A stretch of 64,000 bases of DNA from Pseudomonadota bacterium (GTDB lineage: Bacteria > Pseudomonadota > Gammaproteobacteria > Steroidobacterales > Steroidobacteraceae). The DNA is taken from the NCBI GenBank assembly GCA_018241505.1, contig JAFEDS010000004.1:124001-188000 (forward strand), in the 5' to 3' direction. How positions within the stretch are numbered: the stretch's first letter is position 1; the number at the start of each line of letters is the position of its first letter. The position numbers and the translations under genes were made by a program. Shown here piece by piece: positions 4,367-45,720 of this stretch. The notes beneath the pieces were generated by a model, which did not search any database, was not told the origin of the DNA, and was given only the letters and a program-made list of their open reading frames with translations.

Positions 4367-4460
4367 CGGCCAACGCGCCGCAGGCGCCCTTGCCACTGTC
4401 GCAGCCGGGCTGGGGGCGGAAAAGGACCCGGGCTCCGCGCGGCCAGTGCCGCGCCAATTA
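4367..4460 (-). repeat. Intergenic structured repeat, copy A (sense to the IclR gene)
   Basis: Read on the minus strand, this begins directly after the IclR stop codon with TTAATTGGCGCGGC. It forms hairpin 1, with arms GCGCGGC/GCCGCGC (4437-4454) and a 4-base loop, then GGAGCCCGGGTCC, and ends in a GCGCC/GGCGC element followed by GTTGG. The same blocks recur near 7.65, 21.60, 24.98, 26.57 and 45.61 kb. The A-rich second hairpin seen in copies D and E is not clear here. Confidence 0.8.
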
Positions 4461-4461
4461 A

Positions 4462-5319
4462 CTAGCGGGGTGGTAGCAACTGGCTACTCAGCTTGTCAGC
4501 GGCATTGCGCAACACGGGCAAACACCGTTCGAGCAACTCCCGCCGCGACACGCGCGAGGCCTGGCTGCTGACATTCATGGCCGCCACCACGGTGCCCACG
4601 ACATTCCGCACCGGTACGGCAATCGAGCGCAACCCGATCTCCAGCTCCTGGTCGTTGATGGCATAGCCCTCGTGCCGCACCTCGACCAGCAACTCTTCGA
4701 GCCGCGATCGCGAAGTGACCGTGTGCTTGGTGTGTTGGGTCCAGTCGACTTTGGACAACTCGATGTCAACCTGACTGTCGGTCAGGTGAGCCAGCAGCAC
4801 CCGGCCCAATGCCGTGCAGTAGGCGGGCAGGCGGCTGCCCACTCCCAGGTTGACCGACATGATCCGCTTGGTTGCGGCACGGCCCACATACACAACAGCG
4901 CCGTCATCCAATACGGCGACCGATGAGGCCTCCCCCAGCGTCTCGCTCATTTCCTCGAGAACCGGTTGGGCCGCAATCGGTACGGGAGCCGTCGAGAGAT
5001 ACGAGTAGCCGAGGTTCAAAATCCGCGGCTGTAGAAAGTACATGCGGCCATCGGTGCCCGCGTAGCCGAGCTCCTTCAAGGTGTACAGGCAGCGGCGGAC
5101 GACGGCACGGGTCAATCCGGTTGCGCGGCTGACGTCCGCGATGGTCAGCCGGCGATCGACACCGGCAAATGCCCGTATCACGTGCAGACCGCGGGCCAGA
5201 GAGGTCATGAAGTCCGGGTCGCCGCCTCGAAAGAGCGCATTGTCCGGGTCGGTTGCGCTCATTACACGCTGCGCGATAAACGCACCCGAGGTTTTTGGTA
5301 GAGTTTTGGGGGGCAACAT
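4462..5319 (-). CDS. IclR-family transcriptional regulator (PcaR/PobR-like)
   Basis: The protein has an N-terminal winged helix (LTIADVSRATGLTRAVVRRCLYTL) and a C-terminal IclR effector domain (LGRVLLAHL, RSIAVPV). It matches the PcaR/PcaU/PobR branch that controls beta-ketoadipate and hydroxybenzoate genes. I place the start at ATG 5319 because it has a purine-rich AGAAGAG upstream; a longer reading would run into the divergent thiolase gene. Divergence from a pcaF-type thiolase, 66 bases away, supports a PcaR-like role. A structured repeat abuts its stop codon. Confidence 0.88.
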   Translation of the reverse strand: MLPPKTLPKTSGAFIAQRVMSATDPDNALFRGGDPDFMTSLARGLHVIRAFAGVDRRLTIADVSRATGLTRAVVRRCLYTLKELGYAGTDGRMYFLQPRILNLGYSYLSTAPVPIAAQPVLEEMSETLGEASSVAVLDDGAVVYVGRAATKRIMSVNLGVGSRLPAYCTALGRVLLAHLTDSQVDIELSKVDWTQHTKHTVTSRSRLEELLVEVRHEGYAINDQELEIGLRSIAVPVRNVVGTVVAAMNVSSQASRVSRRELLERCLPVLRNAADKLSSQLLPPR

Positions 5320-5385
5320 GGCGCGCTCTTCTAGTATAGTAGGCGAGTGCGTTAATCGTACCACTAAACCATCCGGATGCGACTC
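5320..5385. promoter_or_regulatory. Divergent promoter/operator region between IclR gene and pcaF
   Basis: The 66 bases between the two starts must hold both promoters and probably the IclR binding site. An imperfect dyad with arms AGTG and CACT surrounds GTTAATCGTAC near 5346-5365. The placement is inferred from gene layout; no box was confirmed. Confidence 0.35.
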
Positions 5386-6591
5386 ATGACTGAAGCCTTT
5401 ATTTGCGATGCCGTTCGAACCCCCATTGGCCGATACGGCGGTGTGCTTGCATCCGTCCGCGCCGACGATCTGGCCGCAATTCCGATCGCAGCGCTCATTG
5501 CTCGCAACCCATCCCTGGATCCCAAGGCAATTGACGATGTCTTCTTCGGTTGTGCCAATCAAGCCGGTGAAGACAACCGGAACGTCGCGCGTATGGCCAC
5601 CCTGCTGGCTGGCCTCCCTGTCGATGTACCCGGTGCCACGCTGAATCGCCTCTGCGGCTCCGGAATGGACGCCATTGGAATGGCGGCGCGGGCCATCAAG
5701 GCCGGGGACTCGGACCTGATTGTTGCCGGTGGAGTCGAGTCGATGTCACGGGCGCCGTTTGTCATGCCGAAGGCGGACGCGGCCTTCAGTCGAACGGCCG
5801 AAATATATGACACCACCATCGGATGGCGCTTCGTCAACGCGCGCCTGAAGGAAAAGTACGGTGTCGACTCCATGCCCGAAACGGGCGAGAACGTTGCGGC
5901 CGATTTCAAGGTGTCGCGCGAGGACCAGGACCGATTCGCGTTGCGCAGCCAGCAGCGCACAGCGGCTGCCTATGAGCGGGGCTTCTTCGAGTCGGAGTTG
6001 GTTCCGGTTGAAATTCCACAGCGCAAGGCGAAGCCTCTCGTTGTTTCGCGTGACGAACATCCGCGTCCCGAAACGACGTTGGAGCAACTCGCCAAGCTTC
6101 CAACTCCTTTCCGTGCCAACGGCACAGTGACGGCTGGGAATGCATCTGGAGTCAATGACGGCTCCTGCGCGTTGATTATTGCGTCCGAGCAGGCCGCAAA
6201 GCGGTTTGGGCTCACGCCGCGTGCGCGGATCATTACAACAGCGACGGCGGGAGTTGCGCCGCGGATCATGGGAATCGGCCCAGTGCCCGCAAGCCGCAAG
6301 GCGTTGAGCCGTGCCGGGCTCGAGATCGGGAAGATGGATACGATCGAGCTGAACGAAGCGTTTGCTTCGCAGGGCCTGGCCGTCCTGCGCCAGCTCGGCC
6401 TGGCTGACGATGCTGAGAACGTCAATCCGAATGGTGGCGCGATCGCGATCGGTCATCCGCTGGGCATGACAGGCGCGCGTCTCGTAACCACGGCGCTATA
6501 TCAACTCGCGGCGACCCGCGGCCGTTACGCGCTTTGCACAATGTGCATCGGCGTCGGCCAGGGTATTGCCATGATCATCGAGCGCCTGTGA
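5386..6591 (+). CDS. pcaF: 3-oxoadipyl-CoA thiolase
   Basis: This thiolase of about 401 residues performs the last step of the beta-ketoadipate pathway, cleaving 3-oxoadipyl-CoA to succinyl-CoA and acetyl-CoA. The N terminus TEAFICDAVRTPIGRYGG is characteristic of PcaF/PaaJ. The nucleophile is Cys90 in LNRLCGSG, and GHPLGMTGAR and CIGVGQG carry the other catalytic histidine and cysteine. I chose ATG 5386 over 5377 because family members begin MTEAFICDA. No other pca genes are adjacent, which is unusual. PaaJ (phenylacetate pathway) carries out the same reaction and cannot be excluded. Confidence 0.9.
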   Translation: MTEAFICDAVRTPIGRYGGVLASVRADDLAAIPIAALIARNPSLDPKAIDDVFFGCANQAGEDNRNVARMATLLAGLPVDVPGATLNRLCGSGMDAIGMAARAIKAGDSDLIVAGGVESMSRAPFVMPKADAAFSRTAEIYDTTIGWRFVNARLKEKYGVDSMPETGENVAADFKVSREDQDRFALRSQQRTAAAYERGFFESELVPVEIPQRKAKPLVVSRDEHPRPETTLEQLAKLPTPFRANGTVTAGNASGVNDGSCALIIASEQAAKRFGLTPRARIITTATAGVAPRIMGIGPVPASRKALSRAGLEIGKMDTIELNEAFASQGLAVLRQLGLADDAENVNPNGGAIAIGHPLGMTGARLVTTALYQLAATRGRYALCTMCIGVGQGIAMIIERL

Positions 6592-6596
6592 GCTGA

Positions 6597-7640
<1,044 letters not shown>

Positions 7641-7647
7641 TTTTTTG

Positions 7648-7690
7648 ATTGGCGCGGCACTGGCCGCGCGGAGCCCGGGTCCTGGTCCGG
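7648..7690 (+). repeat. Intergenic structured repeat, copy B (sense to ddl)
   Basis: A run of six T, then GATTGGCGCGGC, follows the ddl stop. Hairpin 1 (7652-7669) has arms GCGCGGC/GCCGCGC and loop ACTG, followed by GGAGCCCGGGTCC. The copy is truncated after that and merges into the upstream region of the methyltransferase gene. Confidence 0.8.
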
Positions 7691-7714
7691 CGGTGCCGGT
7701 GGCATAATGCTGCC

Positions 7715-8473
7715 ATGCACGAGGCGGCCGCCAAGGGATTTGCAAAGGAAGCGCTGACGTACGCGCGTGGCCGTCCGGAATATCCTGTGGCGGTCGATCA
7801 GTGGCTGAGCGATTCGCTGCTGTTGGATGAGACGCGCACCGTCATCGACCTGGGCGCCGGTACAGGCAAGTTCACTCGCCGGTTGCTGGCAACCGGAGCC
7901 AACATAATAGCCGTCGAGCCGGTGGCGGAGATGTTGGCCCAACTCACCCGGATCCTTCCCAATGTGGCCGCGCGCTCCGGCACCGCGGAATCCATTCCCG
8001 TCAATGACGCGGCGGTCGACGCCGTGGTGTGTGCGCAATCCTTCCACTGGTTTGCATCAAAGGCCGCGCTCGCGGAAATCCATCGCGTGTTGAAACCGGG
8101 CGGTCGCCTGGGTTTGATCTGGAACGTTCGCGACGAGTCATTCGACTGGTGTGCCGCGATGACGGCCATCATGGATCCGTACGAGGGCAGCGCGCCGCGC
8201 TACCGAAGCGGTGAGTGGCGCAAGTTGTTTCCCGCGGAGGGATTCGGTCCGCTGCATGAAGAGCAGTTTCGCAACGGCCACACTGGACGTCCGGAGCAGG
8301 TGATTGTCGAGCGAGTGTTATCCACCAGCTTCATAGCCGCGCTTCCGCGGCCACAACAATTGGTAGTCGCGGCCCGACTCCGCGACCTGATTGCGATGAC
8401 ACCCTCGCTCAACCGACGCGAGGAAGTGACTGTCCCGTATCGGACAGTCGCGTTCAGCTCCGAGCGCTACTAA
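7715..8473 (+). CDS. Class I SAM-dependent methyltransferase (methyltransf_11 type)
   Basis: Motif I, VIDLGAGTGKFTRRL (near residue 40), binds SAM, and the VVCAQSFHWF and LKPGGRLGLIWN stretches are the usual later motifs of this family. The start is ATG 7715 (MHEAAAKGFAKEA); an upstream extension would be translated repeat DNA. The substrate is unknown. The C terminus overlaps the convergent aldo/keto reductase gene by 20 bases. Confidence 0.85.
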   Translation: MHEAAAKGFAKEALTYARGRPEYPVAVDQWLSDSLLLDETRTVIDLGAGTGKFTRRLLATGANIIAVEPVAEMLAQLTRILPNVAARSGTAESIPVNDAAVDAVVCAQSFHWFASKAALAEIHRVLKPGGRLGLIWNVRDESFDWCAAMTAIMDPYEGSAPRYRSGEWRKLFPAEGFGPLHEEQFRNGHTGRPEQVIVERVLSTSFIAALPRPQQLVVAARLRDLIAMTPSLNRREEVTVPYRTVAFSSERY

Positions 8474-9497
8474 CCAACCCCAGCCGATCGGCCGACAGCC
8501 GCTCGACCATCCAACCCGGGAACTCGTTGGGCAGCGCCGAAACTTTGTCCAGCGTGGCCATCTGTTCGGCCGTCAACTGAAGATCCACCGCGGCAATGTT
8601 GTCGTTCAACTGTTCGACGTTCTTGGCGCCGATGATGACCGACGTGACCGGCGCCTTGTGCAGCAGCCACGCGATTGCAATTCGCGCCACCGACACATTG
8701 TGAGCTTTCGCGATCGGCCGCATGGAATCGATCACTCGCCACGCCCGCTCCTTGTCCACAGGCGGAAAGTCGAACTGCGCGCGCCGCGAGCCTTCCGGCC
8801 CCTGCGAATCACGTGAATATTTGCCGCTCAACAAACCGCCCGCCAACGGGCTCCAGGGCAGGATGGCCAGTTGTTGATCGTTGCACAGGGGTACGATTTC
8901 CCGCTCCAGGTCGCGGCCGGCGATGGTGTAGTAGGCCTGCACGCTCTGGAAGCGCTCGTACTGGTGTTTGTCGGATATCCAAAGTGCCTTGGTAATCTGC
9001 CAGGCGGCGAGGTTGCAAACACCGATGTATCGGACCTTGCCTGCGCGCACACAATCGTTGAGCGCGCCCAGGGTTTCCTCCATCGGGGTCAACGCATCGA
9101 AGCCGTGGAGTTGGTACAGGTCAATGTAGTCGACCTGCAGGCGCCTCAGGCTCGCATCTATTGCGTGCAGGATATGCACCCGCGAGAGGCCGGATTGATT
9201 GGGTCCCGGACCCATCCGTTGGTGGACCTTGGTGGCAAGCACAAACTGGTCGCGGGCGATACCCAGGTTGAGCAGCGCCTGTCCGGTCATGACCTCCGAG
9301 CGTCCGGCGTGATAGACATCCGCGGTATCGACGAAGTTGATACCGTGGTCGAAGGCCGCCCGGACGATGCCATCGACCGCCGGCTGCTCCAGCCGGCCGA
9401 TACTGCGCCACAGGCCGTCCCCTGTCCCGAAAGTCATGGTACCGAGGCACAGCTCTGAAACGAGCAGGCCGGTGTTGCCGAGTTTCTTCAGTCGCAT
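8454..9497 (-). CDS. Aldo/keto reductase
   Basis: This cytoplasmic NADPH-dependent reductase has a TIM-barrel fold. It begins MRLKKLGNTGLLVSELCLGTMTFG and contains the catalytic Asp/Tyr pair in FVDTADVYHAG, Lys in LATKVHQRMG and His in YQLHGFD. Its length of 347 residues is normal for the AKR11/12-like group. Start ATG 9497 has GCGGAG upstream. The physiological carbonyl substrate cannot be inferred. Its 3' end overlaps the convergent methyltransferase gene. Confidence 0.9.
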   Translation of the reverse strand: MRLKKLGNTGLLVSELCLGTMTFGTGDGLWRSIGRLEQPAVDGIVRAAFDHGINFVDTADVYHAGRSEVMTGQALLNLGIARDQFVLATKVHQRMGPGPNQSGLSRVHILHAIDASLRRLQVDYIDLYQLHGFDALTPMEETLGALNDCVRAGKVRYIGVCNLAAWQITKALWISDKHQYERFQSVQAYYTIAGRDLEREIVPLCNDQQLAILPWSPLAGGLLSGKYSRDSQGPEGSRRAQFDFPPVDKERAWRVIDSMRPIAKAHNVSVARIAIAWLLHKAPVTSVIIGAKNVEQLNDNIAAVDLQLTAEQMATLDKVSALPNEFPGWMVERLSADRLGLVSSARS

Positions 9498-9600
9498 TCG
9501 GGTTCTCCGCAAGGCGTGCGCTCGCGCGATCAGCAACAAACGCGCCTGCTGGGGGAGACTAGGCGAATCGCGGCGCCTTCGGTACAGTCGCCACATCGAG

Positions 9601-9640
9601 GGGGTGTCGGGTCGGACCTTCGGGTCCGGCCGGGCACCTC
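9601..9640. other. Long hairpin with UUCG tetraloop between two minus-strand genes
   Basis: Arms 9601-9618 and 9623-9640 pair over 18 positions, with a few G-T wobbles and one G-G mismatch, around a TTCG loop closed by C-G. On the plus strand this is an extra-stable RNA tetraloop. There is no T-run on either side, so it is not a standard intrinsic terminator. It lies between the subtilase stop and the aldo/keto reductase start. Confidence 0.6.
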
Positions 9641-9680
9641 GCGCGCCTTCTGTCCTCGCCGCTCGATCCTGATGCGGGTT

Positions 9681-10952
9681 TCAGCGCCCCGAACGGGCCA
9701 GACGGCCGGCTTTTTCCCCTTCCACCTTGGCCAGTGCCGCATTGACATCGATCGCCAAGGGTTGGTTCGCCGATGCCGGCGTGCTTTTCAGCAACGACAC
9801 AATCGAGTCGGCCGTGAGGTGGTTGTTGGCGCTGAGCAACAGCGCAATCATGCCAGTCACTTCGGCGGCGGCGACCGAAGTACCGGATTCGAAGTCGTAT
9901 TCAGCGCCGGGTCGAAGTGTCATCACGTGAGTCGCCGGTGCGGTGAGAGTGGCGCTGCCGTGATTGCCTTCGCTGTTGCCCACGCCGATGACGCCGCTGA
10001 TGTTGGTGGGAAATGAGCCGGCCTCGCTGGTAGTCGAGCCTACGAAAATCACCCCCCGCTTGAGGCCTGCCTGCACCAATGCGGAGAGCAGGGGGTCGGC
10101 GGGGCCCCCAATGCTCATGTTGATCAGCGGGACATTGGCGTCGATGGCGGCCGCGATCGCTTGCGCCAGCGTGAAGGTATTGCAGGCGGCGTCGTCCGCG
10201 TTCGGGTTGAGCTGCCAGCAGGCTTCAAACACTTCAATTTGCGCCAGTGGCGCGATTCCTACGATACCCACCTTGTTGTTGGCCACGGCGGCGATCAATC
10301 CCGCCATCGCGGTCCCGTGCCGGTAGGCGCCGGCCGTCGTCCCGGCGCGAGTGGTGACAAACGAGCGGGTGGTGACGATCCGATCCTGGAGGTCCGGGTG
10401 TTTGCGGTCCACGCCGGTGTCAATCAAGGCAACCTTGATTCCTGCGCCCTGGGCCCGCTCGTGAGCGGCCGCGATATCCAACGACACGAGATTCGTCTGC
10501 AGGCCGTACAGCGGGTCGTTGTAGACAGTCGTAGGCGCGCTGCTCAGGGTGTGGAATTGTTGGAGCGGCTGCGCCAGCGTGATCTTCGGATCCTTGGTCA
10601 GCGCGGCCAGCACTTCCGCCACCGGGCGATTATCCGGAATTTCGTACACCACGCAGTGCACACCGAGCTGCTTGATAGGCCAGCTCGCAACCTGCTTCAG
10701 GGAGTAGGTGTCGGCGACCCGCTGGGCATTGTTGTGGGCACCCTGGGCGACCCGGTAGGTACCGCTCATGTAGCGGCGGCCGGTTGAGCCGGCCCGTGAT
10801 GTCGGGCGGACCGGATCGTTCGCGAAGGTCACGACCACAAAGCGGTGGCCGTCATCGAAGGTGGTCGCTGCCGTGTCAGCCGATGCGGGCGCACCGATCC
10901 AGACTGACAGGACCAGTGCAGCTAGAGCGCTCGCACGCGCAAGGAGGCGCAT
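9681..10952 (-). CDS. Exported S8 (subtilisin-like) peptidase with altered active-site surroundings
   Basis: The 423-residue protein has a signal peptide (cut probably after APASA, residue 25), a propeptide-like region (about 35-135) and a subtilase domain. Catalytic Asp178 (ALIDTGVDRKHPDL), His212 (YRHGTAMAGL) and Ser359 (ESGTSVAAAEVTG) are present. The oxyanion-hole asparagine normally found in a GN motif is replaced: the sequence reads VIFVGSTTSE, with Ser306 there. The usual GTSMAAPH has become GTSVAAAE. It is the last gene of an ECF sigma / anti-sigma operon, starting on the anti-sigma stop (TAATG). It may be a weak protease or a binding protein. Confidence 0.88.
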   Translation of the reverse strand: MRLLARASALAALVLSVWIGAPASADTAATTFDDGHRFVVVTFANDPVRPTSRAGSTGRRYMSGTYRVAQGAHNNAQRVADTYSLKQVASWPIKQLGVHCVVYEIPDNRPVAEVLAALTKDPKITLAQPLQQFHTLSSAPTTVYNDPLYGLQTNLVSLDIAAAHERAQGAGIKVALIDTGVDRKHPDLQDRIVTTRSFVTTRAGTTAGAYRHGTAMAGLIAAVANNKVGIVGIAPLAQIEVFEACWQLNPNADDAACNTFTLAQAIAAAIDANVPLINMSIGGPADPLLSALVQAGLKRGVIFVGSTTSEAGSFPTNISGVIGVGNSEGNHGSATLTAPATHVMTLRPGAEYDFESGTSVAAAEVTGMIALLLSANNHLTADSIVSLLKSTPASANQPLAIDVNAALAKVEGEKAGRLARSGR

Positions 10953-11665
10953 TAGTGCTCCAGGGCATCCGGCGCTCGCTGCTCAGCCGGTGTGCCCTCA
11001 TCCGCAAGGGGTTCTATCCACAACACGCGCGGATCCGTCCGCAGCCGCTCCGCAAGGGCGTGCAACTGCCTCGTCGAGCTTTTCCCACTGGCGCCCACTG
11101 GCGTCACACCCAGCACACCCGTGCTATCCGGACCGTGCACAATCTGCGCACCACCGGCTCGCAGGAGCTCCTCCACCTCGCCGATGGGGATGTTGCGATC
11201 GAGTGCGACATGCAGAACGGTTGGCGCCGGCGCCGTGTCCGTGTGTGTCGCGTACAGTGGCTGGGACCAGCGATACGCCTGGACCATCATGCCGGTAATG
11301 CCAAACATCAACAGGAAGCTGGCTGCCCAGGCGAGTCCGGGCGGGCGCCACAGTGAAACGTGGCTCAGCCTCGAAATCCACGACGGCTGCGACTTCGGAC
11401 GTCGTACGGACTCCGTACCTTCTTCGCTGTCGATGCGATCCATCAGCTTGCGAAACGACGGTCCCGGCGCGTAAGTCACCCGATCGGGCTCGGTGAAACC
11501 CTTCCCCATCAGATGTTGCACGGCCAACTCCTGCTCGCAGGCACTGCAGTGCCGCACATGCTCCTCCGCCACCTCGCGTTCAGACGCGGATAGCCGGCCG
11601 GTCGCGAGCCACGGCAACAGGAGCCAGATTTCCTCGTGCCGGTTGTGTTCATTGGAAGCGATCAT
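10952..11665 (-). CDS. Membrane anti-sigma factor with subtilase-propeptide-like periplasmic domain
   Basis: Residues 1-50 contain a zinc-binding anti-sigma motif (His36-x3-Cys40-x2-Cys43). A single membrane helix follows at about 111-128. The periplasmic part (149-220) reads like an inhibitor-I9/subtilase propeptide: a strand VLHVALDR, a helix EVEELLRAGGAQIV, then LAERLRTDPRVLWIEPL. The gene overlaps the sigma gene by 4 bases and the subtilase by 1 base. By family knowledge it holds the ECF sigma at the membrane. That the periplasmic domain binds the neighbouring subtilase is my inference. Confidence 0.85.
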   Translation of the reverse strand: MIASNEHNRHEEIWLLLPWLATGRLSASEREVAEEHVRHCSACEQELAVQHLMGKGFTEPDRVTYAPGPSFRKLMDRIDSEEGTESVRRPKSQPSWISRLSHVSLWRPPGLAWAASFLLMFGITGMMVQAYRWSQPLYATHTDTAPAPTVLHVALDRNIPIGEVEELLRAGGAQIVHGPDSTGVLGVTPVGASGKSSTRQLHALAERLRTDPRVLWIEPLADEGTPAEQRAPDALEH

Positions 11666-12309: not shown

Positions 12310-12380
12310 TCCTATCCTTTATCGGTCAGTGTCGCGCGGATTCCTCCTGGTTCAAACCGGGGCCTCAAAAAGATGATAGA

Positions 12381-13118: not shown

Positions 13119-13154
13119 TATGTCCCTCGAAACGCCCGTGACAATTGTTCGTTG

Positions 13155-21595: not shown

Positions 21596-21613
21596 GCGCG
21601 GCGTCAGCCGCGC
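21596..21613 (+). repeat. Degenerate copy F of the intergenic repeat (hairpin 1 only), after metK
   Basis: The same 7-bp stem GCGCGGC/GCCGCGC is found here 17 bases after the metK stop, preceded by GATTTT and followed by GAACCCG, with loop GTCA instead of ACTG. A second small hairpin (CCGCGA/TCGCGG) follows at 21621-21636. It may act as the metK 3' end or shield the riboswitch. Membership of the family is weaker than for the others. Confidence 0.55.
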
Positions 21614-21643: not shown

Positions 21644-21711
21644 CGCCTTCGAGGAGCGTTGCGACAGGCGGTACAGGGCTCCCTGTACCGGACCTGCCAG
21701 GCTCGAAGGCG
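21644..21711 (+). promoter_or_regulatory. S-adenosylhomocysteine (SAH) riboswitch upstream of ahcY
   Basis: A perfect 10-bp closing stem (CGCCTTCGAG at 21644-21653 with CTCGAAGGCG at 21702-21711) encloses the conserved core GAGGAGCGTTGCGAC on the 5' side and CCAGGCTCG on the 3' side. A GGTACAGGG/CCCTGTACC hairpin lies between them. These are the hallmarks of the SAH riboswitch, which turns on SAH-removing genes when SAH accumulates. It ends 47 bases before the ahcY start codon. Downstream purU and folD follow closely, so it may affect them too. Confidence 0.93.
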
Positions 21712-21758
21712 TCGCGATTCGTCAATACGGCGCTCGTTCTTTAGTGGAGCATTTAATA

Positions 21759-24116: not shown

Positions 24117-24974
24117 GTGAGCGCGATTGTGATGGACGGCAAGGCCGTCGCCGCTAAAGTGCGCTCCGAGGTTGCAGTGCGCGCAAAGGAGTTTGCGAGC
24201 AAGTACGGACGGCGTCCGGGACTTGCCGTCGTGCAAGTGGGGCAGGACGCAGCGTCCACTGTGTATGTGCGCAACAAGCGCAAATCCTCCATCGAAGCGG
24301 AGATTGAATCCTTCGCGCACGATCTGCCGGCAACCACTACACAGGCGGAGCTTCTCGAGTTGGTGCAGGGCTTGAATCGCAATCCGCGTGTCGACGGGAT
24401 CCTGGTACAGATGCCGCTTCCCAAGGGGCTCGACAGCGATGCCATCATGGATGCGGTGGATCCGGCCAAGGACGTGGATGGTTTTCATCCAACCAACACC
24501 GGATTGCTCGCGCAGAAGCGTCCGCGGCTGCGCCCGTGCACGCCGTTCGGCGTGATCCGGCTGGCAAAGGAATACGGTATCGACCTGACCGGCTTGCGCG
24601 CGACGGTGGTTGGGGCTTCCAACATTGTCGGCCGGCCCATGGCGCTGGAGTTGTTGCTGGCGCGGTCCACGGTCACCGTCTGCCACACTGGAACCAGGGA
24701 TCTCGAGTCCGAGGTGTCACGAGCCGATGTGGTCGTGGCCGCTGTTGGCAAGGCCGGGTTTGTCCCAGGTGCATGGATCAAGCCGGGCGCGGCGGTCTTC
24801 GATGTGGGTATCAACCGCACGGCCGAGGGCAAACTGGTCGGTGACGTTGAGTATTCCAAGGCTGCCGAGCGGGCCGGCTGGATTACGCCGGTGCCGGGTG
24901 GTTTGGGGCCGATGACCATTGCGATGCTGTTGTCCAATGCCGTGGACGCCGCATTCAGACGGGCGAATGTTTGA
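24117..24974 (+). CDS. folD: Methylenetetrahydrofolate dehydrogenase / methenyltetrahydrofolate cyclohydrolase
   Basis: The bifunctional FolD oxidises 5,10-methylene-THF to 10-formyl-THF. Catalytic lysine lies in YVRNKRKSS, with VQMPLPKGL, DVDGFHPTN, RPCTPFGVI, the NADP loop VVGASNIVGRPMALELL and PVPGGLGPMT. I start it at GTG 24117 (VSAIVMDGK), 5 bases after purU, because GAGG lies 8 bases upstream. Its stop codon TGA forms the first bases of repeat copy C. Confidence 0.94.
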   Translation: MSAIVMDGKAVAAKVRSEVAVRAKEFASKYGRRPGLAVVQVGQDAASTVYVRNKRKSSIEAEIESFAHDLPATTTQAELLELVQGLNRNPRVDGILVQMPLPKGLDSDAIMDAVDPAKDVDGFHPTNTGLLAQKRPRLRPCTPFGVIRLAKEYGIDLTGLRATVVGASNIVGRPMALELLLARSTVTVCHTGTRDLESEVSRADVVVAAVGKAGFVPGAWIKPGAAVFDVGINRTAEGKLVGDVEYSKAAERAGWITPVPGGLGPMTIAMLLSNAVDAAFRRANV

Positions 24975-25013
24975 TTGGCGCGGCATTGGCCGCGCGGCGC
25001 CCGAGTTCTCTTT
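24974..25013 (+). repeat. Intergenic structured repeat, copy C (sense to folD)
   Basis: The repeat begins on the folD stop codon (TGATTGGCGCGGC). Hairpin 1 occupies 24978-24995 with loop ATTG, followed by GCGCCCGAGTTCTC, a variant of the family's GGAGCCCGGGTCC. The rest of the 147-base gap to the ligM-like gene shows no further family blocks. Confidence 0.78.
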
Positions 25014-25076
25014 GCGCCGCGCGGACCGCGTTCGCGCCGGCGACTGATATTCGTCTTGCTGATGACACTCATTTGA

Positions 25077-26522
<1,446 letters not shown>

Positions 26523-26529
26523 AAGACGA

Positions 26530-26566
26530 AGGGTGCGGGGGAATCGTCTCCCGTGCCCTTTTTTAT
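26530..26566 (+). terminator. Rho-independent terminator after the ligM-like gene
   Basis: A GC-rich hairpin with arms GGGTGCGGGG and CTCCCGTGCCC (including G-T wobbles) around a GAATCGT loop is followed directly by six T. It starts 8 bases after the stop codon and would end the long fds-to-ligM gene run. Repeat copy D begins within its T-tract. Confidence 0.8.
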
Positions 26567-26762
26567 TGGCGCGGCGTTGGCCGCGCGGAGCCCGGGTCCT
26601 TTCACGCCACCAAAAAGCGTGGTTTTTGGTGGCTGCGTTGAGGGGCATTGCGCCTGCGGCGCGTTGGGGGCGCGGAGCCCGGGTTCTTTCACGCCACCAA
26701 AAAGCGTGGTTTTTGGTGGCTGCGTTGAGGGCATTGCGCCTGCGGCGCGTTGGGGGCGCGGA
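26566..26762 (+). repeat. Intergenic structured repeat, copy D, with internal tandem duplication
   Basis: Hairpin 1 (26569-26586) is followed by two tandem units of 87 and 86 bases (26584-26670 and 26671-26756), each starting CGCGGAGCCCGGGT. Each unit holds hairpin 2 (26607-26632 and 26694-26719: arms CCACCAAAAA/TTTTTGGTGG, 10 perfect pairs) and then GCGCCTGCGGCGCGTTGG, which can form hairpin 3. This is the most complete copy in the window. Confidence 0.88.
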
Positions 26763-37016: not shown

Positions 37017-37046
37017 GGAAATGCAGGGCTCTTGCAAGAGCGCGGT

Positions 37047-37074: not shown

Positions 37075-37089
37075 GCTGAAAGCCTCTCC

Positions 37090-38916: not shown

Positions 38917-38939
38917 CCCCCGCACGTCTGTCTGCAGCT

Positions 38940-39605
38940 ATGACAACAGCGTCCAGCGAGCCCGCACATAAGTTCATTGTGGTGGAAGGCCCCATCGGCG
39001 TGGGCAAGACCAGTCTTGCGCGACGTCTATGCACCAGCCTCAGTGCGGAAGCCGTGTTGGAGCAGGCGTCCGAAAATCCATTCTTGGAGCGCTTCTACCG
39101 CAATCCGCGTGCCGGTGCGCTGCCCACCCAGTTGTATTTTCTGTTTCAGCGTGCCCAGCAGCTTTCCGCTCTGAAGCAGCAGGACCTGTTTGCTCCGGTG
39201 CGGGTCGGCGACTACCTGCTGGACAAGGATCGGCTGTTTGCGCGAGTGACTCTCGATGATGCCGAGTACGCGCTGTACGAGCAGGTCTACACCAAGCTCG
39301 ATATTCAAGCACCGAAGCCCGACCTGGTGGTGTACCTGCAGGCCCCGGTCGATGTCCTGCTCGAGCGAATCGGCAAACGCGGCATCGGCTACGAGCAGCA
39401 CATCGAGCGGCAGTACCTGGAGCGCTTGAACGAAGCGTATGCGCGCTTCTTTCACGAGTTCGAAGCGGCGCCACTGCTCATTGTAAACGCGGCGGCCATT
39501 GATCCGATCAACAACCAGTCGGACTACGACGAGCTGCTGGCGGCGATTCAGCGGATGAAGCGCGGCCGCCTCTACTACAATCCGCTGCGCAGCCGCAGCC
39601 TCTGA
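38940..39605 (+). CDS. Deoxynucleoside kinase-family protein
   Basis: The 221-residue protein has a P-loop (VEGPIGVGKTSLARRL), the QLYFLFQRAQQL helix and DYLLDKDRLFARVTL, as in dGK/dCK-type deoxynucleoside kinases. It would phosphorylate deoxynucleosides in salvage. The start ATG 38940 lies 23 bases after pcnB. In many gammaproteobacteria this slot between pcnB and panB is held by folK, so the kinase is a local substitution. Confidence 0.88.
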   Translation: MTTASSEPAHKFIVVEGPIGVGKTSLARRLCTSLSAEAVLEQASENPFLERFYRNPRAGALPTQLYFLFQRAQQLSALKQQDLFAPVRVGDYLLDKDRLFARVTLDDAEYALYEQVYTKLDIQAPKPDLVVYLQAPVDVLLERIGKRGIGYEQHIERQYLERLNEAYARFFHEFEAAPLLIVNAAAIDPINNQSDYDELLAAIQRMKRGRLYYNPLRSRSL

Positions 39606-39622
39606 AGCGGCCAAGGGGACTC

Positions 39623-40450
39623 ATGTACACACACCTGCAACTTCGCGGTTCCGACCGGCCGCCGGTGACTTTGAGCACCCTCGCCAAAATGAAGGAAGAC
39701 GGCCGGAAGATCGCCAGCCTGACCTGCTACGACGCCAGTTTTGCGGTGCTGCTGGATTCGGCTGACGTTGATGTTGTATTGGTCGGCGACTCGTTGGGGA
39801 TGGTGATCCAGGGATATGACACGACGGTCCCCGTGACCATGAACGATGTCATCTATCACTGCCGCGCAGTTGCCCGCGGCTTGCATCGGCCCTTCCTGAT
39901 GGCTGACCTGCCGTTCATGAGCTATCCATCGAAGGCGGAGGCCCTGAGCAACTCCGTGCGCCTGATGCAGGAAGGCGGCGCGAAAATGATCAAGTTGGAA
40001 AGCGGCGCCACGCAGATCGAGATTGTTGAGTTCCTCGCGGCACATGACATTGCCGTGTGCGCGCACCTGGGGCTGAAGCCTCAGTCGGTACACAAGACCG
40101 GTGGTTTCCGCGTGCAGGGACGCGCTGACGATGCGGCGGAGCTGATGATTGCCAACGCCAAGCGGCTCGAATCGGCCGGCGCCGACATTGTGCTGCTGGA
40201 GTGCATCCCGTCCGCGCTCGGCAAACAGATTACCGAGGAGCTGCATGTTCCCGTGATCGGCATTGGCGCGGGACCCGACACGGACGGCCAGATTCTCGTC
40301 CTCTATGACATTCTCGATATCACGACGGGACGCAAGCCGCGCTTTGTGCAGAACTTCATGCAGGGCGCGGGCAGCAACCAGGAAGCGCTTGCCAACTATG
40401 TGAAGGCGGTGAGAGAAGTTCGGTACCCGGCCGCCGAGCACGAGTTCTGA
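39623..40450 (+). CDS. panB: 3-methyl-2-oxobutanoate hydroxymethyltransferase
   Basis: PanB makes ketopantoate from 2-oxoisovalerate using 5,10-methylene-THF, in pantothenate/CoA synthesis. VVLVGDSLGMVIQG, AVCAHLGLKPQSVHKTGGFRVQG and VIGIGAGPDTDGQILVLYD are diagnostic. The 275-residue length is standard. Its stop overlaps the panC start (TGATG). Confidence 0.96.
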   Translation: MYTHLQLRGSDRPPVTLSTLAKMKEDGRKIASLTCYDASFAVLLDSADVDVVLVGDSLGMVIQGYDTTVPVTMNDVIYHCRAVARGLHRPFLMADLPFMSYPSKAEALSNSVRLMQEGGAKMIKLESGATQIEIVEFLAAHDIAVCAHLGLKPQSVHKTGGFRVQGRADDAAELMIANAKRLESAGADIVLLECIPSALGKQITEELHVPVIGIGAGPDTDGQILVLYDILDITTGRKPRFVQNFMQGAGSNQEALANYVKAVREVRYPAAEHEF

Positions 40451-41298
40451 TGGAGACTGTCACCACCATTGCGGCCGTTCATGCGCGCGTGCGCGCCTGG
40501 CACAAGGAAGGATTGCGGGTTGCATTCGTTCCCACAATGGGCAACCTGCATCCCGGCCACGTCAGTCTGATTGAAGCGGCCCGCCGCCACGGCGAGCGCT
40601 TCGTGGCCAGCATTTTCGTCAACCCGATGCAGTTCGGGCCGAACGAAGACTTCGCGCACTATCCGCGCACGCCGACACAGGATGAACGGATGTTGGCCGA
40701 AGCGGGCTGCAACCTGATGTTCATGCCGGATGTGGCTGAGATCTATCCGAATGGCGCCGAGCGGGCGACGCGCATCGATGTGCCGGGCCTGTCACGGATT
40801 CTGTGCGGCGAGTTCCGGCCCGGTCATTTCGAGGGCGTGGCGACGATTGTTGCCAAGTTGTTCCACATCGTCGAGCCCGATGTGGCCGTGTTTGGCGAGA
40901 AGGACTTCCAGCAGTTGACGGTGATCCGACGGATGGTGGCGGATTTGTGTATCCCCGTGCAGGTGATCGGGGCTCCGACGGTCAGGGATGCGGATGGGTT
41001 GGCGATGAGTTCCCGCAATCAATACCTGACGCCGCAAGAGCGCGCGCTTGCACCCCGTATCTACGAAATTCTGACGGCGACGGCGAAGCGGCTTCAGGCG
41101 GGCGACAACGAGTTCGCAAGCATGGAGCGTGCGGGCTGCCAGGCGCTGGAGGCGGCAGGATTCAAGCCGGACTATTTCGCAGTCAGGCAGGCGGTGGATT
41201 TGAGTGCGCCCAAGCCGGACACGAGTCACCTGGTGGTGTTGACCGCGGCGCGGTTGGGCAAGGCACGGTTGATAGACAACGTGCAGGTGAGGCGCTGA
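40450..41298 (+). CDS. panC: Pantothenate synthetase
   Basis: PanC joins pantoate and beta-alanine with ATP. It shows VAFVPTMGNLHPGHVSLIEAA (HIGH-like motif), FVNPMQFGPNEDF, VFGEKDFQQLTVIRRMV and GLAMSSRNQYL, all typical. Length 282 is normal. It is coupled to panB; panD is not in the window. Confidence 0.96.
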   Translation: METVTTIAAVHARVRAWHKEGLRVAFVPTMGNLHPGHVSLIEAARRHGERFVASIFVNPMQFGPNEDFAHYPRTPTQDERMLAEAGCNLMFMPDVAEIYPNGAERATRIDVPGLSRILCGEFRPGHFEGVATIVAKLFHIVEPDVAVFGEKDFQQLTVIRRMVADLCIPVQVIGAPTVRDADGLAMSSRNQYLTPQERALAPRIYEILTATAKRLQAGDNEFASMERAGCQALEAAGFKPDYFAVRQAVDLSAPKPDTSHLVVLTAARLGKARLIDNVQVRR

Positions 41299-41304
41299 GG
41301 CGCC

Positions 41305-42369
41305 TCAGGCGCCATGGCGCGCCAACGCCCACTCCACGTGCTCCCTCACCAACGCCGACGAATCCTCGCACCGCGCACGCAGCGCAGCAATCACATCGGT
41401 TGAGGTCGGCGCGTTGCCCAACGCAACGGCAATATTCCGCGACCAGCGCTCATATCCGATCCGATAAATCGCCGATCCCCGCATCCGCTCGTCAAACTCC
41501 GCCTGCGTCCAGGCAAACAACTGCGTGAGCTGCGTTGCATCCAGCCGGTGGCGCACCTTGAAATCCGGATGCGCCGCCGCCTGGGCAAACTTGTTCCACG
41601 GGCACACGAGCTGACAATCATCACACCCATAGATCCGGTTGCCGAGCGCGGGACGCAGCTCGGGCGGAATCGCGCTTTTGTGCTCAATGGTGAGATAGGA
41701 AATACATCGCCGTGCATCCAACTGGTGGGGCGCGACAATCGCACCCGTTGGACACGCCGGAATGCACGCCGAGCAGGTGCCGCAATGCGCGGTCGCAGCT
41801 TCATCCACGGGCAAAGGCAGGTCGGTGAGGAGCTCCCCGATGAAAAACCACGAGCCGGCATCGCGGGCGATCAGGTTGGTGTGTTTGCCGATCCAACCGA
41901 GGCCCGCGTTGCGGGCAAAGGCTTTCTCCAGCACCGGCGCGCTGTCGACACAAACACGGTAACCGAACGGGCCGATGCGCCGGGCTGTTGCTTCCGCCAG
42001 GCGCGCGAGCGCTTGCCGCATGACCTTGTGATAGTCGCGTCCCAGCGCATACCGCGAGATGTATCCGAGGGTTGAGTCAGCCAGCACCGCTTCGGCATCC
42101 GCACTATCACCGGGCCAATAATCCATTCGCACGCTGAGCACACGTACAGTGCCCGGCGCCAGTTCCTGCGGGCGCGTCCGCATGGATCCATGCCGTTGCA
42201 TGTATTCCATTTCGCCATGATAGCCGGCCGCGAGCCAACTCAGCAGGTGCCGTGCATCTTCGGGGATCTCGACACTGGCAACACCCAGTCGACTGAAGCC
42301 GAGGGCGCGGGCGCCCTCGATCAGCGACTGCTTTGTGGCGTAGAGGTCAAGAATTTCAAACTCCTTCAT
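41305..42369 (-). CDS. queG: Epoxyqueuosine reductase
   Basis: QueG reduces epoxyqueuosine to queuosine in tRNA, using cobalamin and two [4Fe-4S] clusters. The clusters are held by CGTCSACIPACPTG and CDDCQLVCPWN. The family motif DSAPVLEKAFARNAGLGWIGKHTNLI is present. A C-terminal HEAT-like segment follows (VREHVEWALARHG). I start it at ATG 42369 (MKEFEILDLYATKQSL), the last ATG before the divergent nnrED gene. Confidence 0.94.
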   Translation of the reverse strand: MKEFEILDLYATKQSLIEGARALGFSRLGVASVEIPEDARHLLSWLAAGYHGEMEYMQRHGSMRTRPQELAPGTVRVLSVRMDYWPGDSADAEAVLADSTLGYISRYALGRDYHKVMRQALARLAEATARRIGPFGYRVCVDSAPVLEKAFARNAGLGWIGKHTNLIARDAGSWFFIGELLTDLPLPVDEAATAHCGTCSACIPACPTGAIVAPHQLDARRCISYLTIEHKSAIPPELRPALGNRIYGCDDCQLVCPWNKFAQAAAHPDFKVRHRLDATQLTQLFAWTQAEFDERMRGSAIYRIGYERWSRNIAVALGNAPTSTDVIAALRARCEDSSALVREHVEWALARHGA

Positions 42370-42401
42370 GGCGAAGCCGCCGCTGTCAGTATAATCACCC
42401 C

Positions 42402-43880
42402 ATGGCGCTGCCGATTGCACTCTACTCAACGTCACAAGTTCGCGCGCTCGATGCTCATGCCATCGATGTGCAAGGCATTCCCGGCTACACGTTGATGAAA
42501 CGTGCCGGCGAAGCCGCTCTCAGATATCTGCGTACGCGCTGGCCAATGGCTCATCGCATCGTGATTGTGTGCGGCGGAGGAAACAACGGCGGTGATGGCT
42601 ATGTTTTGGGCCGTTTCGCCCAAGCCGCTGGGCTGACGGTCGCGGTGCTGTCGGCGGTGGCACCCGATGAGCTGAAGGGCGATGCGCGCCAGGCCTGCGA
42701 TGACTTTCGCGGCAGCGGCGGACAGCTACGGCCTTTCTCTCAGGAACTGTTGCGCGAAGGCGAGGTGATTGTCGATGCGCTGCTGGGCACCGGCGTCAAG
42801 GGCGCTGCCCGGCCCGAAATTGCAAAAGTCATCACCCGGATCAACTCGGCGGGCAGGCCGATATTCGCGCTCGACGTACCGTCGGGCCTCGACAGTGACA
42901 CGGGGGTGCCGCTCGGAGAAACCGTGCGCGCCGACTGCACTGTCACGTTTGTAGGACTGAAGACGGGTTTGTTCATCGGCGACGGTCCTGAGTTTGCCGG
43001 AACCGTGTTTTTCGATGATCTCGAAGTCGTGGCCCCTCAGGCCAAGGGTTTCGAGCCGCGGCTCGAGCGCATCATGGAGACGGAAATCCTCCAGGCGCTG
43101 CCGCGGCGCCGCCGCTCTTCCAACAAGGGCGACTTCGGCCGCGTGCTGATAGTCGGCAGCGGTCCCGGCTTTCCCGGTGCCGCGCGCCTGGCGGGTGAGG
43201 CGTGTTTGCGCGTCGGTGCCGGGTTGGTCACTGTTGCCGTTGCACCGGAAAACGTGGCGCCGATTTCCGCGGGCCGTCCGGAGTTAATCTGCCTGGCGTT
43301 GGTTCACCAGGGCGAGCTCGAGGACGCCATTGAGCGCGCCGATGTCATTGCCATCGGCCCCGGACTCGGACGCACTGATTGGGCGCGTAAAGCGCTCACG
43401 GCGGTACTGAATTCCCGCAAGCCGCTGGTGATCGATGCGGATGCACTGAATCTCGTGGCCGAAGCGGGCACCCGTGCTCGTGACAACTGGATATTGACGC
43501 CTCACCCGGGCGAGGCCGGGCGATTGCTGGGTATCAAGACGGATGATGTGCAGAACGACCGTCTTGCGGCCCTCGAACATTTGATTGAGCGTTATCACGG
43601 AACAATTGTGCTGAAGGGCGCGGGGACCTTGGTAGGTACGGCCAACCGGATTCCGGCACTCTGTGAGCGGGGCAACCCGGGCATGGCGACTGCTGGAACC
43701 GGAGATGTACTGACCGGCGCTGTTGCGGGAATCCTTGCCCAGTGCCCCGATACGTCATTAGCCGCCAGGGTTGGTGTATTTGTGCACGCGATGGCGGGCG
43801 ATGCTGCAGCGCGGGGCGGTGAGCGGGGATTGCTCGCGAGTGACCTCACGCGTGAGTTACACAACTGCGTAAACCGTTAG
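42402..43880 (+). CDS. Bifunctional NAD(P)HX epimerase / ADP-dependent dehydratase
   Basis: This YjeF-type fusion repairs hydrated NAD(P)H. The N-terminal epimerase domain has VCGGGNNGGDGYVLGR and LDVPSGLDSDTG. The C-terminal dehydratase domain has AIGPGLGR, VIDADALNLVA, LTPHPGEAGRLLG and NPGMATAGTGDVLTGAVAGIL. Length 492 is standard. TATAAT at 42390-42395 may be its -10 box. It precedes tsaE as in many gammaproteobacteria. Confidence 0.95.
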   Translation: MALPIALYSTSQVRALDAHAIDVQGIPGYTLMKRAGEAALRYLRTRWPMAHRIVIVCGGGNNGGDGYVLGRFAQAAGLTVAVLSAVAPDELKGDARQACDDFRGSGGQLRPFSQELLREGEVIVDALLGTGVKGAARPEIAKVITRINSAGRPIFALDVPSGLDSDTGVPLGETVRADCTVTFVGLKTGLFIGDGPEFAGTVFFDDLEVVAPQAKGFEPRLERIMETEILQALPRRRRSSNKGDFGRVLIVGSGPGFPGAARLAGEACLRVGAGLVTVAVAPENVAPISAGRPELICLALVHQGELEDAIERADVIAIGPGLGRTDWARKALTAVLNSRKPLVIDADALNLVAEAGTRARDNWILTPHPGEAGRLLGIKTDDVQNDRLAALEHLIERYHGTIVLKGAGTLVGTANRIPALCERGNPGMATAGTGDVLTGAVAGILAQCPDTSLAARVGVFVHAMAGDAAARGGERGLLASDLTRELHNCVNR

Positions 43881-43915
43881 CCTGGCTGGCAAAAACCGCT
43901 GACGATACTGAGGCC

Positions 43916-44353
43916 TTGGGTGCACGGCTCGCAGCAGCGAGGCCCCCAGGCAATGCCCTTGGAATTATTTACCTCACGGGCGACCTCGGCGCAGGCAAGA
44001 CGACTTTCGCTCGCGGTTTCCTGAACGGGTGCGGAGTGAGCGGCCCGGTCAAGAGCCCGACCTACACTTTGGTCGAAATGTATGAAACCCCCGCTGTGTC
44101 CGTCATACACCTCGACCTGTATCGAATGCTCGATCCCGAAGAGCTCGACCCGCTGGGGCTGCGGGAGCTCGCGCGGCCTGGTTACCTTTGGCTGGTTGAA
44201 TGGCCGGAGCAGGGAACCGGCCGGTTGCCGCCGCCGGATCTGGTGGTGAGTCTGTCCGGCGGTTTGACTGGGCACGACATCAATGTGATCGGGGCATCCG
44301 CGTTGGGTGAATCATGGCTGTCTGGAGTTGAAAACCAACCGTCCGGAACGTAG
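43916..44353 (+). CDS. tsaE: tRNA threonylcarbamoyladenosine biosynthesis ATPase TsaE (start uncertain)
   Basis: TsaE is the small ATPase that helps TsaB/TsaD make t6A in tRNA. Walker A is TGDLGAGKTTFARGF, followed by SPTYTLVEMYE and HLDLYRM. TTG 43916 is the only start-like codon near the core, but the in-frame codons before it (back to 43856) read like a normal TsaE N terminus (AKTADDTEALGARLAAA). The true start may therefore be an unusual codon overlapping the end of the upstream gene. Confidence 0.88.
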   Translation: MGARLAAARPPGNALGIIYLTGDLGAGKTTFARGFLNGCGVSGPVKSPTYTLVEMYETPAVSVIHLDLYRMLDPEELDPLGLRELARPGYLWLVEWPEQGTGRLPPPDLVVSLSGGLTGHDINVIGASALGESWLSGVENQPSGT

Positions 44354-44382
44354 ATTACGATACAGCTTATTTCCTGAACCTC

Positions 44383-45600
44383 ATGATAAAGAAGGCGTTT
44401 CAAGTCACGAGCCTCGGGGTGCTCCTGGCTTCCAGCAGTGCCGCGATGGCCGCAAGCGCCGAGCTCCGGGAGGCTCGCCTCACGGCAACGGGGACATCTG
44501 CCCAATTGACCCTGGATGTGGCGGGCACCACGAACCAGAAGGTTTTCACGCTGGATAAGCCACGCCGAGTGGTAATTGACCTCCCACGGACGAGCATCGC
44601 CCGTGGGTTCCGTACACCTGAGGGAGAAGGGGTCGTCTCCGATATCCGGACGGGGCACCAGCTCGGCGGTACGCTTCGAATCGTTGTACGACTGAAAGCG
44701 CCAGCTCCCGCACGAAGTACATGGATGCCCGAAACCCGTCCGGGCCGACGCCAGTTGATCATCAATTTCGGCGACGCTGCTCCGGAAGCCGATACAACTC
44801 CGCGGGTAGTACGCGCACCGCACGCGCCCGCCGACTCGGACCGCGATGTCGTCATAGCAGTGGACGCGGGTCACGGCGGACAGGACCCCGGAGCTACAGG
44901 CCCGGGTGGGACGCACGAGAAAGATGTGGTGCTTCCTATCGCTCGATCGCTCGCCGAACGGATCAACAGAGAGCCGGGCATGCGGGCGGTATTAACGCGC
45001 AATCGGGATGAATTTCTGGTGTTGCGCGATCGAATCCGCCGGGCGCGCGTCGCGAAGGCCGACATGTTCATCTCGGTCCATGCCGACTCAATCGCGAACC
45101 ATGATGTAACAGGCGCTTCGGTGTATGTGTTGTCCGAGCGGGGTGCTACGAACGAAGCGGCGCGGTGGCTGGCCGAACGTGAAAACGCGGCGGACCTCAT
45201 GGGTGGCGTGTCGTTGGACGACAAGGACAACACGCTGGCGTCTGTGCTGCTGGATCTGTCCAACTCGGCGAATATCAGCGCGAGCATGACGGCCGCGCAG
45301 CGTGTGCTGACAGCACTTGATAATGTCGGGCAGGTTCGCAAGTCGCAGGTTCAACAGGCGGGATTCGTCGTGCTGAAGTCGCCGGATATTCCGTCGATGC
45401 TGGTGGAGACCGCGTATATCTCCAATCGGAGCGAAGAGACGCGGCTGAAGAGCCCGAGATATCAAGGCAATCTGGCAGACGCCATTTTTACCGGCGTCCG
45501 CAGCTACTTCGAGCAGAACCCGCCGGTGGGCACGCGCTTCGCTCAGGCCCGACGTGCCACCATCGCCAGCGTCGAAACCGCCACCGCCGATACGCACTGA
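44383..45600 (+). CDS. amiC: N-acetylmuramoyl-L-alanine amidase with AMIN domain
   Basis: The exported protein has a signal peptide (ends near SSAAMAAS), an AMIN domain (about 25-130) that binds the septum, and an Amidase_3 domain. The zinc ligands are in AVDAGHGGQDPGA, GTHEKDV and SVHADSI, and the catalytic glutamate in VETAYISN. It cleaves peptidoglycan stem peptides during cell separation. No LysM domain follows, unlike some AmiB/AmiC. Its regulator loop (about 245-300) is present. Repeat copy E follows its stop. Confidence 0.93.
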   Translation: MIKKAFQVTSLGVLLASSSAAMAASAELREARLTATGTSAQLTLDVAGTTNQKVFTLDKPRRVVIDLPRTSIARGFRTPEGEGVVSDIRTGHQLGGTLRIVVRLKAPAPARSTWMPETRPGRRQLIINFGDAAPEADTTPRVVRAPHAPADSDRDVVIAVDAGHGGQDPGATGPGGTHEKDVVLPIARSLAERINREPGMRAVLTRNRDEFLVLRDRIRRARVAKADMFISVHADSIANHDVTGASVYVLSERGATNEAARWLAERENAADLMGGVSLDDKDNTLASVLLDLSNSANISASMTAAQRVLTALDNVGQVRKSQVQQAGFVVLKSPDIPSMLVETAYISNRSEETRLKSPRYQGNLADAIFTGVRSYFEQNPPVGTRFAQARRATIASVETATADTH

Positions 45601-45605
45601 CTGAT

Positions 45606-45720
45606 TTTATTGGCGCGACACTGGCCGCGCGGAGCCCAGGTTCTCTTCCGCCAGCAAAAAGCGCGGTTTTTGCTGGCTGCGTTCGTGCAAGGCGCCTGCG
45701 TCGCGTTGGGCCGCGCGGAC
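45606..45720 (+). repeat. Intergenic structured repeat, copy E (sense to amiC)
   Basis: It starts 6 bases after the amiC stop. Hairpin 1 (45613-45630) has one A-C mismatch. Hairpin 2 (45651-45676) has arms CCAGCAAAAA and TTTTTGCTGG; compared with copy D the fourth base has changed from C to G and its partner from G to C, so pairing is kept. GGCGCCTGCGTCGCGTTGGGC then replaces the hairpin-3 block. The rest of the gap to mutL shows nothing further. Confidence 0.85.

Follow-up and report, generated by a model that had tools for sequence, protein, structure and literature searches.

The window considered here is a 64,000-nucleotide (nt) stretch of contig JAFEDS010000004.1 (positions 124,001 to 188,000) from a member of the Steroidobacteraceae (assembly GCA_018241505.1), and it harbors several copies of a short, structured repeat found behind the stop codons of genes. 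A preliminary description, made from the letters of the window, had grouped six 7-bp hairpins (GCGCGGC/GCCGCGC, with a four-base loop) into one family that always lies just after a stop codon and in the sense of the gene. All six hairpins are confirmed in the window sequence, and all six follow a stop in sense. In this report we describe the wider family to which they belong, and consider how its members may have come to lie at gene ends.

Repeat copies in the window

The copies, their host genes and the associated structures are as follows, with bit scores referring to R1, a model of the repeat introduced below.

4405..4466, minus strand: repeat copy behind an IclR-type gene; 77.6 bits; hairpin 4437-4454
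4462..5262, minus strand: IclR-family regulator, host gene (PF01614, PF09339)
6636..7640, plus strand: D-Ala-D-Ala ligase (Ddl), host gene (PF07478, PF01820)
7640..7701, plus strand: repeat copy behind the Ddl gene; 72 bits; hairpin 7652-7669
21596..21613, plus strand: hairpin behind metK, 16 nt from the stop; 12.4 bits, expectation value (E) 0.34
24117..24974, plus strand: FolD, host gene (PF02882, PF00763)
24966..25027, plus strand: repeat copy at the folD 3' end; 58 bits; hairpin 24978-24995
25122..26522, plus strand: aminomethyltransferase folate-binding domain (GCV_T) protein, previously termed ligM-like, host of the tandem copies (PF01571)
26528..26561, plus strand: terminator-like hairpin of 15 pairs; its T-run passes into the leader of the copy at 26557
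26557..26618, plus strand: repeat copy, unit 1 of a tandem pair; 73.5 bits; hairpin 26569-26586; second-hairpin core 26611-26628
26647..26705, plus strand: repeat copy, unit 2 of the pair; 33.2 bits; second-hairpin core 26698-26715
44383..45600, plus strand: AmiC-type amidase, host gene (PF01520, PF11741)
45601..45662, plus strand: repeat copy behind amiC; 72.4 bits; hairpin 45613-45630; second-hairpin core 45655-45672

Five of the six original sites thus score 58-78 bits. The metK hairpin, previously regarded as a degenerate copy, cannot be counted as an established member of the family because of its low score, and it falls outside the 75 matches obtained across the genome. Behind the IclR gene the stop, TAG, lies 7 nt before the hairpin, and a downstream module, GGCGCCTGCGGCGCGTTGG, extends to about 4370. 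The Ddl copy has 11 nt between stop and hairpin and no second hairpin. At folD the stop TGA of the gene lies inside the element leader, TTTGATTG, only 3 nt before the hairpin, and the protein ends in RRANV*, as compared with RRAAAGHAGD* and RAGGKN* in its orthologues. The hairpin of the 26557 copy is found 46 nt behind the stop of the GCV_T protein gene, directly after the intrinsic terminator-like hairpin. Behind amiC the stop TGA lies 12 nt before the hairpin and the full element reaches about 45710; this copy is missing at the orthologous locus L093. Separately, an S-adenosylhomocysteine (SAH) riboswitch (RF01057, 52 bits) is found at 21645-21742 on the plus strand, between metK and ahcY, with the metK hairpin just upstream.

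A lineage-specific family of repeats

Within the window alone, the hairpin pattern with up to two mismatches is present at 6 sites against a shuffle mean of 4.92, which is the level expected by chance, and the whole genome (G000; 7.88 Mb in 46 contigs, 93.9% complete with 5.67% contamination) was therefore searched. Genome-wide, 54 sites match the hairpin exactly, as opposed to 2 for a reversed control; since the pattern is palindromic (identical to its reverse complement), every site is counted on both strands. A longer core, GGCCGCGCGGAGCCCGGGTYCT, is found with up to two mismatches at 38 places, against 0 in the control. The model R1 was built from an alignment of 31 copies (A1), and with it the search of the genome and its relatives that the preliminary description had proposed recovers the family, with 62 matches in G000 at E<=1e-5 (the strong set) and 75 at E<=0.05. 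The remaining 13 matches, weaker at 22-33 bits, do not enter the placement counts; five of them lie within 13 nt behind a same-strand stop, two at 104 and 136 nt, four behind opposite-strand genes and two inside called genes.

Outside this genome the repeat all but disappears. R1 gives no match at E<=1e-5 in the 57 other genomes of the genus, under stricter filters with which weak matches are lost, and none at E<=1e-6 among the other 395 genomes of the order, where filters strict enough to recover just 13 of the copies of G000 itself mean that weak copies could be missed. No match at E<=0.01 is seen in the nearest named relative, the metagenome-assembled genome (MAG) RYN_606 (G412), which is apparently the same genome as G005, as identical places were matched. 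At the same threshold in 40 genomes, G000 included, three others have a single weak match each. One exact 32-base pattern is absent from genome_contigs and viral_contigs, collections from which the genome of the window may have been left out and in which diverged copies would be missed by such a pattern. The closest AmiC relative in genome_contigs is that of RYN_606 (86%), followed by uncultured bacteria at 60% or less, including Steroidobacteraceae MAGs. Rfam gives no match above the gathering score at the window copies or in the 7 loci scanned. No description of the family was found in the literature searched, nor in the available portion of PMC5009743. The repeat family is real and lineage-specific.

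Anatomy of the element

The element is up to about 104 nt long, although its 3' portion is often absent. From an alignment of 26 copies with a second hairpin (25 strong copies and a second tandem unit), the order of modules is the leader TTTATTG, hairpin 1 (GCGCGGC-ACTG-GCCGCGC), GGAGCCCGGGTYCTTTTCCGCC, hairpin 2 around CAAAAAGCGYGGTTTTTG, TGCGTTGGTGCAAGG and GCGCCTGCGGCGCGTTGG. The 31-copy alignment likewise has TTTATTG 5' of hairpin 1, and GGAG 3' of it. Hairpin 2 is present in 25 of 60 intergenic strong copies, and many copies lack the later modules. The near-universal presence of hairpin 1 follows in part from the way in which the copies were found; when hairpin-2 sites were searched for independently, 24 of 25 adjoined an R1 match. 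No terminal inverted repeats, as would mark a miniature inverted-repeat transposable element (MITE), were seen by eye in the consensus of the 26 copies. One arrangement of note is at G000:C8 4446-4526, where hairpin-1 units stand in tandem, the first 7 nt behind a stop.

Hairpin 1 barely varies among the G000 copies. The arms of hairpin 2, however, vary in a matched manner, with pairing over positions 7-11 of 0.81 as compared with 0.70 in shuffled arms, a value reached by 0 of 1000 shuffles. Pair 7 is C-G in 13 of 26 copies and G-C in 10, and pair 8 is A-T in 10, G-C in 5 and unpaired in 11.

Placement relative to genes

Genes were called with a purpose-written coding-potential script over 0.71 Mb around the copies together with the window. 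Two strong copies fall inside called genes, one of them also at a gene end, with the stop in the hairpin loop. The remaining 60 are intergenic: 26 between convergent genes, 15 in sense and 16 in antisense between co-directional genes, and 3 between divergent genes. In all, 41 of the 60 lie in sense behind a same-strand gene, and in 38 of these the stop is no more than 17 nt before the hairpin. By distance, there are 14 copies at 8 nt, 8 at 7, 6 at 3, 4 at 12 and 2 at 11, and single copies at -1, 2, 9 and 17 nt. The three other sense copies are found at 38 nt (the downstream member of a tandem pair that begins with a unit at 7), 46 nt (behind the terminator-like hairpin) and 47 nt.

Were copies placed at random in the gaps of these stretches, copy-holding gaps included, 5.9% of them would fall within 20 nt of a stop, against 38/60 observed within 17 nt (p 9e-32), and 0.6% at 7-8 nt, against 22/60 observed (p 2e-33). 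The sense-behind-stop rule is very strong and unusually strict, but it is not absolute. The claim that copies always follow a stop in sense therefore stands for the six window hairpins and for the strong bias across the genome, whereas "always" does not, since only 41 of the 62 strong copies obey it and 19 of the 60 intergenic copies are antisense or divergent. These 19 are not clearly enriched near starts either, with 8 within 50 nt of one against a null of 31%.

The position behind genes raises the question of whether the repeat is a transcription terminator cassette that has spread by ending transcripts, and termination was among the roles suggested earlier. Convergent gaps are over-represented (26/60 copies, 13% expected), a T-rich stretch is found about 15 nt behind hairpin 1, and hairpin 2 partly fits the terminator pattern. 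Hairpin 1, however, is followed by GGAGCCCGGG, with no T-run directly behind it, and the 26557 copy sits directly behind a gene that already has a better, terminator-like hairpin of its own; these two observations make termination less likely. Many copies, moreover, lack hairpin 2, and three of 25 cousin copies in a sister species, described below, also follow hairpins with T-tracts, as judged by eye. A terminator cassette is consequently quite improbable.

The stop codon: native or supplied by the element

A stop trinucleotide is found 7 or 8 nt before the hairpin in 24 of the 41 sense copies as compared with 2 of the 19 others, so that the stop belongs to the gene rather than to the element. 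Comparison with orthologues adds detail. Of the 38 near-stop host genes, 33 (gene score >=20) were used as queries, and orthologues in G005 or in the sister species G068 could be aligned for 28. Where the stop-to-hairpin distance (d) is at least 7 nt, the protein ends within 2 residues of its nearest orthologue in 18 of 21 cases, the exceptions ending 4-7 residues early (C42:24685, C5:69781 and C41:24889). At the seven sites with d<=3, the stop either falls on the first base of hairpin 1 or is contained in the leader (TTTGATTG and TTTAATTG being examples). Here the last residues are unlike those of the orthologues in six of seven, the end at C17:152055 being that of G068, and two proteins fall 5-6 residues short of the G005 orthologue. 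For folD, the native tail appears to lie downstream of the element.

From these protein ends, some insertions seem to have occurred before the native stop and others after it, in both cases by no more than a few codons. Copies, mostly in sense, are found at stops or no more than a few codons away, and relatives devoid of the element have these stops in the same place. That the element carries its own stop can be rejected for d>=7, both from the 2 of 19 non-sense copies with a stop at 7 or 8 nt and from the native stops of the orthologues; at d<=3, the alignments show that the element does supply it.

Several further ideas were considered and set aside. TAG is over-represented among stops at 7-8 nt (14/22, compared with 137/540 genes), yet TAG as a DNA target is not upheld, as copies elsewhere mostly lack it. 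A readthrough element is discounted by reasoning rather than computation: the two common spacings give different frames behind the stop, and therefore no shared peptide. An ORF-neutral design, suggested by six stop-free reading frames, was dropped since 54% of shuffles are equally stop-free.

A cousin family in a sister species

At E<=1e-5, R1 finds nothing in G068; a cousin of hairpin 2 (CAAAAGGCGCGGCTTTTG, up to one mismatch), however, occurs there at 30 places. Such places are found in 24 of 58 genomes of the genus; there are none in G000, whose version differs. Within 20 stretches covering 25 of the 30 places, the cousins keep the order of modules: a leader often ending in ATTGG or ATGGG, a hairpin GCTGAAAG...CTTTCAGC, and then the cousin hairpin 2. 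This first hairpin is unrelated in sequence to hairpin 1 of G000. With the 5' arm picked by pattern and its best partner sought downstream, 24 of 25 copies form no fewer than 7 of the 8 outer pairs, as against 8.9% in a shuffled control, and pairs are exchanged, for example from T-A to C-G and from G-C to C-G.

Among the 24 cousins with a called upstream gene, 14 are on the same strand, 6 antisense co-directional and 4 divergent. A same-strand stop lies within 15 nt before the hairpin in 10 of the 24 (three at 7 nt and five at 4 nt or less), a bias with p 5e-7 when the null of G000 is used. The stop-codon rule is weaker in G068 than in G000. At the IclR gene, the elements of G000 and G068 (L277, around 1746) occupy the same stop and share a leader, TAG TTAATTGG, but have different hairpins, which is possibly a case of hairpin replacement in place.

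Two further observations were made in the relatives. The three G068 cousins that directly follow the T-run of a terminator-like hairpin, like the 26557 copy, are at L320, L323 and L324. At the end of amiC, RYN_606 has three repeats of another kind at 26-bp spacing (CCAAACTGA...), the first of which contains the stop (L093 from 4212 / L269 from 1807), a pattern not seen in the other loci examined.

Comparison with known repeat systems

The G000 repeats fit the description of multi-copy extragenic palindromes, in that 60 of the 62 strong copies are intergenic, and the family is REP-like (repetitive extragenic palindromic), with an unusually strict stop-codon rule. The mycobacterial interspersed repetitive units (MIRUs) are unidirectional repeats reported to have inserted at stop codons, at stop/start overlaps in operons, a placement that the literature searched here did not confirm. 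The G000 repeats differ in that 26 of 60 lie between convergent genes.

Escherichia coli REPs and bacterial interspersed mosaic elements (BIMEs) are likewise short, palindromic, intergenic and multi-copy, and some lie within 15 nt behind stops. According to PMC12306157, 260 of 496 REPs were assigned to translational control near stops by an earlier study, the paper's own count is only 446 of 4,072 within 15 nt of stops, and translation is reported to be reduced by REPs so placed. The contrast drawn previously with randomly oriented REPs is accordingly softened: the sense bias in G000 is strong, but a share of E. coli REPs is also found near stops. The G000 copies remain distinct in being mostly in one orientation relative to the gene, with a stop-to-hairpin distance that is often exactly 7-8 nt, and in having other downstream modules.

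The repeats could also be classical elements of the lineage, mobilized by a REP-associated tyrosine transposase (RAYT). They are short intergenic palindromes in tens of copies, specific in sequence to the species and occasionally in tandem arrays. PMC2817692 describes a GTAG/GTGG head 5' of the REP palindrome; no such head was found in the 31-copy alignment. The RAYT domain PF01797 (Y1_Tnp), which has matches in 13 of 58 genomes of the genus, has none in G000, G005 or G068, although the last, at 98% completeness, has 30 cousin hairpin-2 sites. At 93.9% completeness, the G000 assembly may have missed a RAYT gene. Overall, a classical REP/RAYT element is very improbable.

A likeness in placement, which also softens the contrast drawn previously, is seen with the GGGAATC repeats of Xanthomonas, which, according to PMC4692102, lie preferentially in sense within 50 bp of stops or in antisense within 50 bp upstream of starts, with few between divergent genes. 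Both families prefer sense-strand sites near stops. The Xanthomonas repeats, however, are tandems of G-rich heptamers able to form quadruplexes, lack hairpin modules and fall into much wider distance classes, and the antisense copies of G000 show no clear enrichment near starts.

Insertion or retention at stop codons

The explanation that we favor, at a probability of roughly 0.55, is a mobile, REP-like repeat that is non-autonomous, inserts at stop codons and leaves an RNA hairpin against the terminating ribosome. Some 62-75 dispersed and apparently non-autonomous copies would have been spread by a mobilizing mechanism with a preference for the stop-codon region. The copies are mostly in sense, with the leader beginning directly behind the stop and hairpin 1 thereby placed at 7-8 nt, or else the element supplies the stop itself. 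In the mRNA, hairpin 1 would then abut the terminating ribosome and, by analogy with what is reported of E. coli REPs near stops, could hinder 3' exonucleases and slow ribosome release.

The alternative is that insertion was random and that sense copies near stops were kept for a selected benefit, such as protection of the 3' end, termination or ribosome pausing. A hairpin 7-8 nt behind a stop is about where a structure meets a ribosome with the stop in its A site, and this exact spacing is found in 22 of 60 copies. The hairpins are also preserved by matched changes both within and between species, and E. coli REPs that lie no further than 15 nt from a stop are reported to have an effect (PMC12306157). 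Retention, however, predicts that the near-stop class should be older or more complete. Near-stop copies carry a mean of 1.63 mismatches in 28 positions against 2.27 in other copies (p 0.58), and hairpin 2 is kept in 15 of 38 and 10 of 22, respectively, so that the off-rule copies persist and are equally well preserved. Because divergence and hairpin-2 retention are equal in the two classes, biased insertion is moderately favored over selective retention, small though the samples are. Selection on spacing would, furthermore, not favor the 7 of 28 near-stop copies with d<=3, which lie at or in the last codons of their genes and include the two shortened proteins. A selected function is thus doubtful. 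Of the earlier interpretation, in which the element acts on the mRNA 3' end, the strong sense bias behind stops and the preservation of hairpins by matched changes are upheld, but the equal divergence points at least equally to biased insertion.

Several results weigh against a mobile repeat that targets stops. The absence of PF01797 from G000, G005 and G068 leaves the means of mobility without a candidate from that family, the only transposase family searched. Among the 31 copies, the word ending in the stop is not repeated downstream beyond what permutations give; a few sites looked suggestive, but a target-site duplication holding the stop was rejected (permutation p 0.10 for 4-mers and >=0.39 for 5- to 7-mers). 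Hairpin 1 shows no covariation within G000, the consensus RNA exceeds shuffles in stability by a small margin only (z -1.33), and 22 of the 60 copies are off the placement rule.

A RAYT-free form of transposition that recognizes the 3' end of a gene by its stop codon, with translation termination or the mRNA as a possible cue, seems rather unlikely, although it would fit two observations: the sites share, by eye, no DNA motif beyond the stop, and 17 of the 19 copies that are not behind a gene have no stop at that position.

REP-like repeats adjoin stop codons in several bacteria, where they may have been either placed or kept. The family described here provides a sharp test case, with its exact 7-8 nt spacing, its empty orthologous sites and a sister species that has a similar rule but a different hairpin, and it is these features that allow insertion bias and selection to be told apart. 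For the organism itself, the transcript of a near-stop copy would carry a GC-rich hairpin at about the point where the ribosome stands on the stop codon.

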